Below are positions 54,874 through 60,669 of a stretch of 64,000 bases of DNA, piece after piece. The DNA lies in assembly GCA_001767455.1 (NCBI GenBank), contig MELC01000084.1, positions 55,340 through 119,339 of the forward strand. The letters run 5' to 3'. The position numbers were made by a program, and so were the translations under genes. This DNA comes from Acidobacteria bacterium RIFCSPLOWO2_12_FULL_66_21. Its GTDB lineage: Bacteria; Acidobacteriota; Vicinamibacteria; Vicinamibacterales; 2-12-FULL-66-21. The stretch's first letter is position 1. The number at the start of each line of letters is the position of its first letter. The notes below the pieces were generated by a model, which was not told the origin of the DNA, ran no database searches, and saw only the letters and a list, made by a program, of their open reading frames with translations.

Positions 54874-55641
54874 GTGTCACCCCGGCCCACCATTTCCGAC
54901 GTTCGCGAGTACTGGAACCGGCACATTCACGACCTGGAGATTACCGCGCACCCGGTGGGTTCACCTGGGTTTTTCAGCGATCTCGATCAGTACCATTTCG
55001 AGAAGCTGCACCATCTGCTGCGTCTCGTCGATTTCGACGGCTACCGCGGCAAGCGCGTGCTCGAAGTCGGCTGTGGAGCGGGGACGGATCTGGTCCGCTT
55101 CGCGAAGGGTGGCGCAATCGTCACGGGCGTCGACCTCGCGGAATCGGCCGTTGCCCTTGCGCGCGCGAACGTCACCCAGCAAGGGCTCGACGCGGACCTC
55201 CGCGTCGCCGACGGGGAGCACCTGCCGTTTCCGGACGACAGCTTCGATCTCGTCTACGCCCACGGTGTCGTGCAATACACGGCTGACCCCCAGGCGCTCG
55301 TGAACGAATGCCGGCGCGTGCTGACGCCGGACGGCGAGGCGGTGTTCCAGGTGTACAACCGCATTTCCTGGCTGAACGCGCTCTCGAAGCTGATGAAAGT
55401 GCCACTCGAGCACGAGGATGCCCCCGTCTTGAAGAAGTACAGCGCGGCTGAGCTCCGCGCGCTGCTCGCAGGGTTCCGGAGCGTGCGGATCGTAGAGGAG
55501 CGGTTCCCCGTCAAGTCACGCCTCCACGGCGGGTGGAAGGGCATCCTGTTCAACACGTTTTTTGTCGGTGCCTTCAACGTGCTGCCGCGGTCGCTCGTCC
55601 GGCGCTTCGGCTGGCACCTCCTGGCCTTCTGCCGGAAATGA
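54874..55641 (+). CDS. class I SAM-dependent methyltransferase
   Basis: A 255-residue type-11 methyltransferase. Motif I is VLEVGCGAGTDLVRFAKGG (residues about 60-78), then GVDLAESAVALARANV and DLVYAHGVVQYTADPQALV. A hydrophobic C-terminus (LFNTFFVGAFNVLPRSLVRRFGWHLLAFCRK) suggests membrane contact, as in enzymes on lipid substrates. GTG start; ends in ATGA overlap with dapF. Confidence 0.87.
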   Translation: MSPRPTISDVREYWNRHIHDLEITAHPVGSPGFFSDLDQYHFEKLHHLLRLVDFDGYRGKRVLEVGCGAGTDLVRFAKGGAIVTGVDLAESAVALARANVTQQGLDADLRVADGEHLPFPDDSFDLVYAHGVVQYTADPQALVNECRRVLTPDGEAVFQVYNRISWLNALSKLMKVPLEHEDAPVLKKYSAAELRALLAGFRSVRIVEERFPVKSRLHGGWKGILFNTFFVGAFNVLPRSLVRRFGWHLLAFCRK

Positions 55642-56459
55642 CGGGGATCCCTCTCGTGAAGTCGCACGCGTTCGGCAACGATTTCGTGCTCGTTGACGAG
55701 CAGGCGCTCGCCCCGTCGCTCGACCGGCCGTCGTTCGCGCGGGCGGTCTGCGAGCGGCACCGCGGTCTTGGCGCTGACGGGCTGGTGATTTTTCGTGAGC
55801 AGCCGGCAGGCGGCGCAACATTCGATCTGCTCAATGCGGATGGCAGCCACTCCGAGCTGTCGGGCAACGGCGTGCGCTGCCTGGCCGCGTGGCTGGTAGG
55901 GCGCCGGGCGGACGGGGAGCCCTCACGGCGATCGGTCGACATCTTCACGGAAGCGGGCGTGAAGCGGCTCGACCTGATCGAGCGCGAGGGGGGACGATTC
56001 ACGTTTCGCGCGTCGATGGGACAGCCGGCTGAGATCGCGCGGAGATCGCTCGAGGTGCATGGGCGTCCGCTCGATGTCGTGACGCTGCGCGTCGGCAACC
56101 CGCAGTGTGTCGTCCTTGGTGAGGTCACCGAGCCGCGGCTGCACCTGCTGGGCGCGGCGCTGGCCGTGCATCCACATTTTCCGGAAGGCACGAACGTGGA
56201 GCTGGCGATGGTGGAGGCGCCAGACCTGGTGCGGATTCTCATCTGGGAGCGCGGCGTGGGACCGACGGAGGCCTCCGGTACGGGGGCGTGCGCGGCGGCC
56301 GTGGCCGCCATGCAATACGGCGGCGCGGCACGCGACGTCCAGGTGGTGGCTCCGGGTGGAGCGCAACGCGTCGAGTGGACGGCGGAGGGGCTGTTCCTGA
56401 CCGGCTGGGCCGAGGTCATTGCGGAGGCACGATGGTTACGCGCGACGGGCGCGGAATGA
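55638..56459 (+). CDS. dapF: diaminopimelate epimerase-like, second catalytic Cys replaced by Ser
   Basis: A 273-residue DapF fold: HAFGNDFVLVDE near the N-terminus, SELSGNGVRC with catalytic Cys81, and ERGVGPTEASGTGACAA in the second half. The usual ACGTGACA supplies the second catalytic Cys; here that residue is Ser213 (codon TCC) while Cys218 is retained. DapF converts LL- to meso-diaminopimelate for peptidoglycan and lysine. A Cys-to-Ser change slows or abolishes epimerisation in studied enzymes, so activity or substrate may differ. It overlaps both neighbours by 4 bp. Confidence 0.88.
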   Translation: MTGIPLVKSHAFGNDFVLVDEQALAPSLDRPSFARAVCERHRGLGADGLVIFREQPAGGATFDLLNADGSHSELSGNGVRCLAAWLVGRRADGEPSRRSVDIFTEAGVKRLDLIEREGGRFTFRASMGQPAEIARRSLEVHGRPLDVVTLRVGNPQCVVLGEVTEPRLHLLGAALAVHPHFPEGTNVELAMVEAPDLVRILIWERGVGPTEASGTGACAAAVAAMQYGGAARDVQVVAPGGAQRVEWTAEGLFLTGWAEVIAEARWLRATGAE

Positions 56460-57979
56460 TGCGCAAACTCCACGAGGCTGCCGGCTCGATGGAGGCGTAC
56501 TCACCGGCGGAAGAGCAGTTCAACCGGAGGCGTCGCACGGTCGGCCTCTTCGCCGGGCCGGCGGTCTTCGTCGCGCTGCTGGTGGCCCCGCTGCCCATCC
56601 CTGCTCCCGCGCATCGGCTTGGGGCGATCCTCGCGATGATGGTCGTGCTGTGGGTGACCGAGGCGCTGCCGCTGTCGGTGACCGCGCTCATCGGGCCGGT
56701 GCTCACCGTCGTCCTCCGCGTCGCGCCCGCGAAGGCCGCCTTCGCGCCGTTTGCCGATCCCATCATCTTCTTGTTCATCGGCAGTTTCATGCTGGCCGAG
56801 GCCATGTTCGTGCACGGCCTCGATCGCCGCATCGCGTTCGGGGCGCTGTCCTCGCGGCTCGTGGGCGCCAGCCCCGCCCGGATCCTCTTCGTCTTCGGCG
56901 GCGTGGCCGCGGGCATCTCGATGTGGATCAGCAACACCGCGACCACCGCGATGATGTTTCCCATCGGGCTGTCAATCGCGGCGCACCTGACCGAAGGGCG
57001 TGAGTCGGAGCAGGGCAGCCGCGACTTTGCCCTGGCGATGATGCTGATCTGCGCGTTTGGCGCCTCCATCGGCGGCATCGGGACGCCCATCGGCACGCCG
57101 CCGAACCTGATCGGCATCGGCATGCTGAGCCGGATCGCCGGCGTCCAGATCAGTTTCTTCAAATGGATGATGCTGGGGGTGCCGATCGTCGTCCTGCTGT
57201 TCGCGTTCCTGGTGGCGTACTTTTATTCGCGGTCACTGCGCGAGCTGAAGCTCGATGCGGGCGGGGCCGACCTCATCGCCGAGGAACTGCGGCGGCTCGG
57301 GCCGATGTCGCAGGGGCAACGGAACGTCCTGATCGCCTTTGCGATGACGGTGGTGCTCTGGCTGACGCCGGGCGTGCTCGCCATCCTGCATCTCGATGCG
57401 ACGGTGTTCGGCAAGGCCTTCAGCGCCGCGGTTCCCGAGTCGGTCGCCGCGATGTGCGGCGCGATCCTGCTGTTCGTGCTGCCGGTGAGCTGGCGCACGC
57501 GCCGGTTCACATTGAGATGGGAAGAAGCGGTCAAGATCGACTGGGGGATCATTTTGCTCTTTGGCGGCGGGCTGGCGATGGGCGAACTGGCCTTCTCGAC
57601 CGGCCTGGCCGAGGCGCTGGGCCGCGGGATTACCGGGTGGCTGCCCGCGAAATCCGCCTTTGCGCTGACGGTGCTCTTCACCGCCGTGGCGATCGTCATG
57701 TCCGAAGCGGCCTCGAACACCGCGTCGGCGAACATGGTCGTGCCTATCGCGCTCGCCGTTGCGCAGGCGGCCGGCGTCAACCCGATCGAGCCCGCGCTGG
57801 GCGCCACGCTCGGCGCATCGATGGGCTTCATGATGCCCATCTCCACACCTCCCAACGCCATCGTCTACAGCTCGGGGCACGTGCCGATCACCGCGATGAT
57901 GAAGCACGGCATCGCGCTCGATGTCGCCGGCTTCGTCGTGATCGTCGCGCTGGTCACGGGACTCGGCTGGATGTTCTAA
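56456..57979 (+). CDS. SLC13/DASS family sodium-dicarboxylate-type transporter
   Basis: A 507-residue inner-membrane transporter with about 11 TM helices. Sodium-site motifs are present: FIGSFMLAEAM, WISNTATTAMMFPIG (the SNT motif) and the second repeat EAASNTASANMVVPIA and MPISTPPNAIVYSSG. It probably imports di- or tricarboxylates or sulfate with Na+. The N-terminal 25 residues are cytosolic. ATG 56456 overlaps dapF (ATGATG); ATG 56432 is possible. It is the third gene of the methyltransferase-dapF-transporter operon. Confidence 0.9.
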   Translation: MMRKLHEAAGSMEAYSPAEEQFNRRRRTVGLFAGPAVFVALLVAPLPIPAPAHRLGAILAMMVVLWVTEALPLSVTALIGPVLTVVLRVAPAKAAFAPFADPIIFLFIGSFMLAEAMFVHGLDRRIAFGALSSRLVGASPARILFVFGGVAAGISMWISNTATTAMMFPIGLSIAAHLTEGRESEQGSRDFALAMMLICAFGASIGGIGTPIGTPPNLIGIGMLSRIAGVQISFFKWMMLGVPIVVLLFAFLVAYFYSRSLRELKLDAGGADLIAEELRRLGPMSQGQRNVLIAFAMTVVLWLTPGVLAILHLDATVFGKAFSAAVPESVAAMCGAILLFVLPVSWRTRRFTLRWEEAVKIDWGIILLFGGGLAMGELAFSTGLAEALGRGITGWLPAKSAFALTVLFTAVAIVMSEAASNTASANMVVPIALAVAQAAGVNPIEPALGATLGASMGFMMPISTPPNAIVYSSGHVPITAMMKHGIALDVAGFVVIVALVTGLGWMF

Positions 57980-58699: not shown

Positions 58700-59368
58700 A
58701 TGAAGACCGTCGCGCCGCACGATCGGCCGCGTGAAAAACTGCAGCGTCTCGGCGTGGCGGCGCTGGGCGACAACGAGCTGGTGGCGATGGTGCTCGGGCA
58801 CGGACAGGGACGCGCCGGCGCGCTCGACCTGGCCAACGCGCTGCTCGGCGCGCTCGGCGGCGTGCACGGGTTGGGACGCGCGAGGCCCGACGATCTGCGG
58901 CACGTGCGCGGCATCGGCACCGCGCGCGCCGCGCAGGTGCTCGCCGCGATCGAGCTCGGGCGCCGGACACTCACGCGGGCGGCCGGCGAACGGGTTCAGA
59001 TTACGAGTCCGCGCATCGCGGCGGAGTTTCTCCTGCCGCAGTATGGCAACCGGCCGGTCGAGCAGTTCGGCGTCGTGCTGCTCGATACGAAGCGGCGCGT
59101 GCTGCGGACGACGGTGCTGTCAATCGGCACGCTCGATTCGAGCATCGTCCATCCGCGCGACGTGTTTCGCGAGGCGGCGCTGGCCGAGGCCGGCGCGCTG
59201 ATTCTGTTTCACAACCACCCGTCCGGCGATCCGTTGCCGAGCGCGGATGACGTGCAGTTGACCGAGCGGATCGTGGCCGCCGGCGCGCTGATGGGGATCG
59301 AGGTCGTTGATCACATGATTCTGTCCGACCAGCGCTATTTCAGCTTCATCGAGGCGGGGCGCCGCTAG
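58700..59368 (+). CDS. radC: RadC/JAB1-domain protein
   Basis: A 222-residue RadC protein with an N-terminal helix-hairpin-helix (HVRGIGTARAAQVLAAIELG, about residues 72-91) and a C-terminal JAMM metalloprotease-like domain with FHNHPSGDPLPSADD carrying the Zn ligands. The biological role of RadC is unsettled. ATG 58700 is 5 bases after a TATGGT, so the transcript may be leaderless. LarC GTG overlaps its stop by one base. Confidence 0.92.
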   Translation: MKTVAPHDRPREKLQRLGVAALGDNELVAMVLGHGQGRAGALDLANALLGALGGVHGLGRARPDDLRHVRGIGTARAAQVLAAIELGRRTLTRAAGERVQITSPRIAAEFLLPQYGNRPVEQFGVVLLDTKRRVLRTTVLSIGTLDSSIVHPRDVFREAALAEAGALILFHNHPSGDPLPSADDVQLTERIVAAGALMGIEVVDHMILSDQRYFSFIEAGRR

Positions 59369-60669
59369 TGGCGAAAGCGGCCTACTTCGATTGTTTCTCC
59401 GGTGCGTCCGGGGACATGGTGATCGGCGCGCTGCTGGACCTGGGGCTGCCGATCGAGGGGTTGCGGGCGGCGCTGGGGAGCCTGGCCATCGAGTACGGCG
59501 GCGTCGCCTCCGAGCGCGTGACGCGCGGCGGCGTGGCGGCCACGAGGTTCCGCGTCTTCGCCGAGGAGGCGCGGGACATTCGACGCCCAACACCCAACGC
59601 CCAACTCCCAGCGCCCAACTCCCAACTCCCAACGCATCATCATGCGAGCGAGGCCGCACACTCGCACGCCAACGGCCACCATCACCACGACCACGCGCAA
59701 GATCACCACAGCCTGACCGACATCAAAGCGGCCATCGGCCGGTCGGCCCTTTCCGCCTGCGGCCGGGCCCGCGCGGTCGCGTTGTTCGCGCGGCTCGCGG
59801 AAATCGAGGCGGCGATTCACGACATGCCGGTGGAGCGGGTGCACCTCCACGAGGTGGGCGCGCTCGATTCGATCATCGACATCGTGGGTGCCGTGCATGG
59901 GATGGAGTGGCTCGGCGCGGACCGCGTGATGGCCTCGCCGCTGAACGTCGGCGGCGGCACCGTCCAGTGCGCGCACGGCACGTTCCCCGTGCCCGCGCCC
60001 GCGACCGCGCGGCTGCTCGAAGGGGTGCCCGTCTACGCCGGCGCGGTGCAGTCGGAACTGGTGACGCCGACCGGCGCGCTGCTCGTGACCGAGTACGCGG
60101 CGGCGTACGGGCCGCTGCCCTCGATGCGGATCGATCGGATCGGCTATGGCGCGGGATTCAAGGATTTTCCCGGCGCGCCCAACGTGCTCCGGATCATCAC
60201 CGGCGACGAGCAGGGGAGCACGGCCGCCGAGCGCATCGTGTCGATCGAATGCGAGATCGACGACATGAACCCGCAGCTGTTCGGGCCGTTGATGGACCGG
60301 CTTGCCGGCGCCGGCGCGCTCGACGTGTTCTACGCGGCGGTGCAGATGAAGAAGGGGCGCCCCGGCGTTCTCGTGACCGCCATCGCCGCGCCGGAACATC
60401 GCGACGCGATCACCGCGGTGTTGTACACCGACACGACGACAATAGGCGTGCGGTACCAGGAAATGTGGCGGGATCGGCTCGACCGGGAGATACGCCCGGT
60501 GGCGACGCCGCTCGGAACGATTCGATTCAAGGTGGCGACCCGGGATGGCCGCGTGCTCAATGCATCGCCGGAGTTCGAGGATTGTGCGAGGGTCGCGGCG
60601 GAGCGCGGGCTCCCGATCAAACAGGTGCAGGCTGTGGCGATCAAGGCGTGGATTGACTCGAGAGAGTAA
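59368..60669 (+). CDS. larC: nickel-pincer cofactor biosynthesis protein LarC
   Basis: A 433-residue LarC, the CTP-dependent nickel insertase that finishes the NPN cofactor of lactate racemase. N-terminus FDCFSGASGDMVIGALLDLG, HLHEVGALDSIIDIVGAVHG and the C-terminal ECEIDDMNPQ and GVRYQEMWRDRL are present, with a His-rich loop (HANGHHHHDHAQDHH) about residues 100-113. Just before that loop, residues 72-89 (RPTPNAQLPAPNSQLPT) are encoded by a CCAACTCCCAAC repeat. No larA, larB or larE is nearby. GTG start overlaps radC. Confidence 0.93.
   Translation: MAKAAYFDCFSGASGDMVIGALLDLGLPIEGLRAALGSLAIEYGGVASERVTRGGVAATRFRVFAEEARDIRRPTPNAQLPAPNSQLPTHHHASEAAHSHANGHHHHDHAQDHHSLTDIKAAIGRSALSACGRARAVALFARLAEIEAAIHDMPVERVHLHEVGALDSIIDIVGAVHGMEWLGADRVMASPLNVGGGTVQCAHGTFPVPAPATARLLEGVPVYAGAVQSELVTPTGALLVTEYAAAYGPLPSMRIDRIGYGAGFKDFPGAPNVLRIITGDEQGSTAAERIVSIECEIDDMNPQLFGPLMDRLAGAGALDVFYAAVQMKKGRPGVLVTAIAAPEHRDAITAVLYTDTTTIGVRYQEMWRDRLDREIRPVATPLGTIRFKVATRDGRVLNASPEFEDCARVAAERGLPIKQVQAVAIKAWIDSRE
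59584..59634 (+). repeat. CCCAACTCCCAAC word array inside larC
   Basis: Six to seven copies of CCCAACGCCCAACTCCCA-like words in frame within larC, encoding a Pro/Asn/Gln/Leu linker. The same word fills the middle of the array at 21405-21437. It shows that the word family can occur in coding sequence. Confidence 0.8.

Follow-up and report, generated by a model that had tools for sequence, protein, structure and literature searches.

The window, the whole 64,000-nucleotide stretch of acidobacterial DNA analysed here, encodes a homologue of the diaminopimelate (DAP) epimerase DapF in which serine occupies both positions of the catalytic cysteine pair. Sequence comparisons suggest that this protein is probably the sole DAP epimerase of its cell and that it would work with an oxygen-based Ser/Ser pair. 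The Ser/Ser DapF appears to be a variant without an earlier report, a weak negative in that the literature searched did not extend to subscription journals and preprints.

Serine at both catalytic positions of a DapF family member

The open reading frame (Table 1) encodes a genuine member of the DapF family. The DapF equivalog model TIGR00652 gives the whole protein a score of 184.8 bits, above its curated cut-off of 114.65, and PF01678 (118.5 bits) is the sole family matched in a Pfam scan that gave no match of the protein to PF05544, the proline racemase superfamily. Identity to solved DapFs reaches up to 36%. In ordinary DapF, a thiol and a thiolate are positioned at two helix N-termini. 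In the window protein, the first active-site motif, which is CGNG in solved DapFs, reads SGNG, and the second, CGTG in solved DapFs, reads SGTG, with Ser213 lying within ERGVGPTEASGTGACA. The phmmer alignment sets “emCGNGiRC” of 9mro over “elSGNGvRC” of the window protein, which places Ser75 at the catalytic cysteine. Thus, the two catalytic cysteines of DapF, one per face of the substrate, are both absent from the window protein, which is for this reason filed as a variant rather than as an ordinary DapF. The codon of Ser213 is one base away from a cysteine codon and that of Ser75 is two bases away. A further change converts the GNPH motif to GNPQ. The initial annotation had correctly delimited the gene and recognized serine at the second catalytic site, but it overlooked Ser75 and Gln156 and took Cys81 for the first catalytic cysteine; Cys81 is instead the cysteine of GVRC, six residues past Ser75, which canonical DapFs carry besides the catalytic one.

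Table 1. Features of the dapF region of the window and the residues discussed in the text
Feature	Position	Strand	Basis or remark
SAM methyltransferase (PF08241)	54874..55641	+	overlaps dapF start by 4 bases
dapF, Ser/Ser diaminopimelate epimerase homologue, 273 aa	55638..56459	+	TIGR00652, PF01678, structure model
Ser75, codon tcg, first catalytic Cys site (CGNG)	55860..55862	+	alignment to solved DapFs
Cys81, codon tgc, conserved, non-catalytic	55878..55880	+	alignment and conservation
Gln156, codon cag, His site of the GNPH motif	56103..56105	+	alignment and conservation
Ser213, codon tcc, second catalytic Cys site (CGTG)	56274..56276	+	alignment to solved DapFs
Na:sulfate/DASS-type transporter (PF00939)	56456..57979	+	in-frame ATG overlaps dapF stop
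RadC (PF04002)	58700..59368		
LarC-like nickel insertion protein (PF01969)	59368..60669		451.9 bits

The residues with which Anabaena DapF binds DAP at either end, given in the available excerpt of PMC12039745 as Asn66, Asn164, Asn197, Glu215, Arg216 and Thr226, all have counterparts in the window protein (N66, N154, N186, E204, R205 and T215). Across 176 Ser/Ser sequences, N66, N186 and E204 are present in all and R205 in 175. When only the 174 distinct Ser/Ser sequences are considered, the first five of these residues are each conserved in 172-174 (N154 in 172), and position 215 is Thr or Ser in every one; three loci (L001, L002 and L108), which are duplicates or another gene, were dropped from this count and from the neighbourhood comparison. 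Position 156 is His in 83 of the 176 Ser/Ser sequences, Gln in 69, Val in 11, Phe in 7, Asn in 5 and Ala in 1, whereas it is His in all 27 tree rows with a catalytic cysteine (15 Ser/Cys, 10 Cys/Cys and 2 Cys/Ser). The GNPH histidine tunes the cysteine in ordinary DapF, and the variation at this position can be read as a retuning of the first site in the Ser/Ser enzymes.

A structure model predicted from 61 Ser/Ser sequences (mean pLDDT 95.7) displays two mirrored halves and the DapF fold. Helices 76-90 and 214-228 of the model begin right after Ser75 and Ser213, so that both serines are confidently predicted to reside at helix N-termini, as the cysteines do in DapF. The best match among solved structures is DapF 9mro (Z 35.8, rmsd 2.1, 259 residues aligned), followed by the DAP epimerase 3ejx (Z 34.6) and by 7vdy, an O-ureidoserine racemase; the H. 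influenzae DapF mutants 2q9h and 2q9j are also among the matches. HisR (Z 25.4), PhzF (25.1) and CntK (23.5) rank lower, which is compatible with an activity of the HisR or CntK kind all the same.

Distribution of the serine pair

The Ser/Ser pair is typical of most of the acidobacterial lineages read. Among 183 genomes of the same phylum, compiled from a search for relatives and a phylum sample (locus L373 and the loci of the pattern scan described below being left out), the site pair is Ser/Ser in 168, Cys/Cys in 13 and Cys/Ser in 2, with no other combination. Ser/Ser is held by 48 of the 54 family codes and by all 56 genomes of the window's own family and order. The claim stops short of the whole phylum: by hand count, 150 of the 230 matching genomes in the phylum sample were read, and the 80 unread ones, all weaker than about E 1e-20, may be richer in cysteine because the Cys forms fall among the weak matches. 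In none of the 183 genomes has serine at either site given way to Ala, Gly or Thr. The restriction of both sites to Ser or Cys indicates that serine is held in the manner of a catalytic residue, and the recurrence of Ser/Ser in 168 of 183 genomes is attributable neither to chance nor to sequencing error. The earlier suspicion of a lineage-specific variant is supported, with a far wider reach than anticipated: both bases are replaced in most members of the phylum read. Five genomes of one family (f37: G120, G131, G159, G247 and G261) have two DapF matches each, possibly a paralogue pair; the stronger match, which is Ser/Ser, was the one counted.

Serine-containing DapF proteins also occur in other lineages. 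A scan of named genomes for a first-site serine codon (TCN) returned at least 120 loci, a number that is no measure of how frequent serine is at this site. Among the 120 loci listed, 84 are Ser/Ser, 25 are Ser/Cys, 7 lack a readable second site on the first stretch and 4 are not DapF; the titles of their records name Acidobacteria, Aminicenantes, Zixibacteria/GN15 and Actinomycetota among others, with Ser/Cys typical of Acidimicrobiia titles. Of 18 genomes reached through such loci, 17 contain one DapF (in G294, a single gene seen as two overlapping contig ends), while one Clostridiales bin contains two. The Ser/Cys dapF of Actinomycetota is flanked by miaB/miaA on one side and by hflX on the other, and a gene for a DapC-like transaminase is close by; the miaA/hflX neighbourhood is presumably the usual place of actinobacterial dapF.

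The clearest separate origin of Ser/Ser appears to be that in a gammaproteobacterial, Pseudomonadaceae-titled bin (L145), where dapF immediately follows lysA (546 bits). Its product nests with the Cys/Cys proteins of Kosakonia and Legionella (support 98) in a tree of 86 rows, from which sequences of fewer than 215 residues and near-copies of more than 55% identity had been dropped. This is a single genome bin, in which two contigs overlap at the locus and both carry the second serine. Across the tree, a quick one with many forks open, the Ser/Ser label requires at least four changes, and at least two when judged by starred branches.

Some other arrangements were also encountered. Clostridia bins contain the large subunit of carbamoyl-phosphate synthase fused to DapF (L144:26-2926, with 789 and 281 bits for the two parts; L159 and L293, G296:C58). 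The DapF part of these fusions is Ser/Cys, and the G296 bin adds a stand-alone Cys/Cys DapF. An Acidimicrobiia-type Ser/Cys dapF also appears in a record titled Bifidobacterium breve (L128), which is probably misnamed or a mixed bin.

Copy number, DAP pathway and gene neighbourhood

The genome from which the window derives contains one DapF only. Further PF01678 matches in this genome fall below the cut-off, and the better of them is a separate Cys/Cys proline racemase homologue (PF05544, 363.7 bits), the presence of which indicates that such cysteines have not disappeared from this genome in general. DapF occurs in 35 of 40 relatives, as a single gene in each. Of the other enzymes around meso-DAP, LysA scores above its cut-off in all but one of 20 relatives (19 of 20, a set that contains the window's own genome), and MurE does so in 17 of 20, with DNPR, the MurE motif linked to meso-DAP, in all 17 loci that cover the motif region. 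DapB scores 144.7 bits in the window's genome when two pieces are joined (cut-off 122) and reaches the cut-off in 21 of 30 genomes searched. Meso-DAP dehydrogenase (Ddh) was found in none of 40 genomes (positive controls: Corynebacterium and Bacteroides), which speaks against a Ddh bypass to meso-DAP. Neither of the DapL models, TIGR03540 and TIGR03542, scored above its cut-off in any genome searched for this enzyme. With LysA, DapB and a DNPR-bearing MurE present and Ddh absent, an L,L-DAP epimerase is probably required by the cell. Some relatives seem to manage without DapF, since LysA but no DapF was found in one genome that is 94% complete (G018), and neither DapF nor DapB in another that is 100% complete (G028). 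In the literature searched, which included part of PMC4644332, no statement about meso-DAP in acidobacterial peptidoglycan was found.

The gene overlaps with a methyltransferase gene upstream and a transporter gene downstream, neither of which is thought to be part of DapF function. The initial annotation had treated these neighbours as a functional clue and had raised the possibility of a repurposed enzyme. The neighbours proved uninformative as they vary between families, and relatives from other classes have an LD-carboxypeptidase, Mpl or PBP4 gene at this place. A second canonical DapF, which the initial annotation had named as a refutation, was looked for in the window's genome and not found, and repurposing is further disfavoured by the invariance of the DAP-binding residues and by the presence of LysA, MurE and DapB in the absence of Ddh. 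Among the relatives, an LD-carboxypeptidase gene (L181) and an Mpl gene (L265; 417.7 bits, cut-off 388.7) adjoin Ser/Ser dapF, both kinds of neighbour occurring in Terriglobia-like loci; a PBP4 gene lies beside dapF in L263, and a glutamate racemase gene is located about 1.4 kb from it in L266. This context would fit a cell-wall role. Another conserved open reading frame, with a D-Tyr-tRNA deacylase domain (L016:134-1462 and 21 other cluster loci), lies upstream of the relatives' Ser/Ser dapF, mostly on the same strand. In the window, genes for RadC and for a LarC-like nickel insertion protein are situated a few kb downstream of dapF.

Proposed mechanism, alternatives and known systems

DapF is the standard example of an enzyme in which a cysteine thiolate removes a proton, with a pKa near 29, from an unactivated amino acid. 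The serine hydroxyl is much less acidic than the cysteine thiol, which counts against a Ser/Ser epimerase. In the proposed mechanism, L,L-DAP would be bound as in ordinary DapF, and one alpha-carbon would be inverted to yield meso-DAP for peptidoglycan (through MurE) and for lysine (through LysA). On either face of the substrate, a serine hydroxyl, that of Ser75 or Ser213, would act as general acid/base in place of the cysteine thiol/thiolate; we infer both the epimerization itself and the role of the serines as bases. These could be sharpened by the helix N-termini, by an active site that is dry and closed, and by the substrate's ammonium group, and turnover may be slow yet sufficient. Conceivably, the benefit is an active site that cannot close by a disulfide, as the Cys/Cys DapF of Corynebacterium glutamicum can (PMC5296763, excerpt).

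The published chemistry, as far as the available parts of the sources go, bears on this proposal in both directions. An argument for cysteine bases from pKa and desolvation is given in PMC8142540, which also describes a Cys-to-Thr change that makes a racemase one-way. Counting against a Ser/Ser epimerase, replacing one cysteine of HisR by serine slows the enzyme greatly (PMC11602996), and the one relative with Ser but no Cys described in the available part of PMC4113996, a Ser/Thr enzyme of the proline racemase superfamily, dehydrates its substrate and does not epimerize it; the same source reports a Ser/Cys enzyme of that superfamily that epimerizes 4-hydroxyproline. Given this precedent and the slowed HisR mutants, a Ser/Ser epimerase is chemically hard but half-way precedented. 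The lack of drift to Ala, Thr or Gly, the single copy and the intact substrate site together make loss of function unlikely.

The protein might nevertheless bind DAP or a DAP-like compound without being an epimerase any longer, serving in regulation, as a scaffold or in a one-sided elimination such as dehydration, while an unknown enzyme makes meso-DAP. Both thiol bases are lost, two complete or near-complete relatives lack a detected DapF, a Ser/Thr enzyme of the related proline racemase superfamily catalyzes a dehydration (PMC4113996, excerpt) and DapF of E. coli doubles as a partner of RppH (PMC4227774, excerpt). We consider this unlikely, although it merits some weight: the residues holding the distal end of DAP do not vary, the single gene coexists with LysA and MurE where Ddh is absent, its position by miaA/hflX or lysA in other lineages is orthologous, and an unseen epimerase would be required in every such genome. 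A small chance also attaches to a DAP epimerase in which water or a nearby acid/base takes the proton, Ser75 and Ser213 serving only to hold the helix N-terminus and the carboxylate. The partner histidine of the first site, free to vary in Ser/Ser proteins but fixed alongside a catalytic cysteine, suggests that the site has been retuned; yet no alternative base is evident, as the invariant residues of the 61 aligned Ser/Ser proteins appear to be those already known from DapF together with the two serines, which nowhere give way to Ala, Gly or Thr among the genomes read.

It is very improbable that the enzyme keeps its serine bases to racemize or epimerize another (di)amino acid, as do HisR, CntK, PddB and O-ureidoserine racemase. 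Several DapF-like enzymes do act on other substrates (PMC11602996 and PMC8225329, both in part), and 7vdy stands third among the model's solved matches. However, two DAP epimerases outrank it, the protein is the sole DapF of a genome in a group whose MurE carries DNPR, and cell-wall genes (Mpl, LD-carboxypeptidase and PBP4) adjoin the genes of relatives. An artefact, be it an error made in sequencing or assembly or the decay of the gene into a pseudogene, has a negligible probability and is refuted by the same two serines in 168 of 183 genomes, the frame being open and the predicted fold of high confidence.

The preferred reading, a DAP epimerase with serine bases, has wider consequences. There is about an even chance that a large part of one of the most common soil phyla makes meso-DAP by way of a cofactor-free epimerase with two serine oxygens, that the change from sulfur to oxygen arose several times (in Acidobacteriota, in a gammaproteobacterium and in a second DapF subfamily), that Ser/Cys and Cys/Ser are natural intermediates, and that neither oxidation nor thiol-directed inhibitors can disable the enzyme. 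If two-hydroxyl enzymes do perform the task of DapF in cells, then the usual explanation for the cysteine pair has to be revised, and the natural Ser/Ser, Ser/Cys, Cys/Ser and Cys/Cys enzymes constitute a ready test series for the mechanism. For annotation, active-site checks would label Ser/Ser DapFs as dead enzymes, and the variant is also relevant to inhibitors that attack the thiols of DapF.

Compared with known DapFs (TIGR00652; 9mro of Anabaena, 1gqz of H. influenzae and 5m47 of C. glutamicum), the window protein is alike in sequence, fold, DAP-binding residues, single copy and, apparently, pathway setting, and differs from the three solved enzymes in having a serine pair for the catalytic cysteine pair and Gln for the GNPH histidine. 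According to the available part of PMC4113996, the 4-hydroxyproline 2-epimerase B9JQV3 is similarly a DapF-like two-domain epimerase with serine replacing the first cysteine, but it retains one cysteine, belongs to PF05544 and acts on another substrate. The Ser/Thr enzyme of the proline racemase superfamily in the same source also has neither site cysteine, although it catalyzes a dehydration, has its threonine reported in a non-catalytic orientation and belongs to another family. The C73S and C217S mutants of H. influenzae DapF (2q9h and 2q9j) and the C67S and C209S mutants of HisR carry the same change at the same positions; these are single and man-made, whereas in the window DapF both residues are serine, naturally so and conserved.
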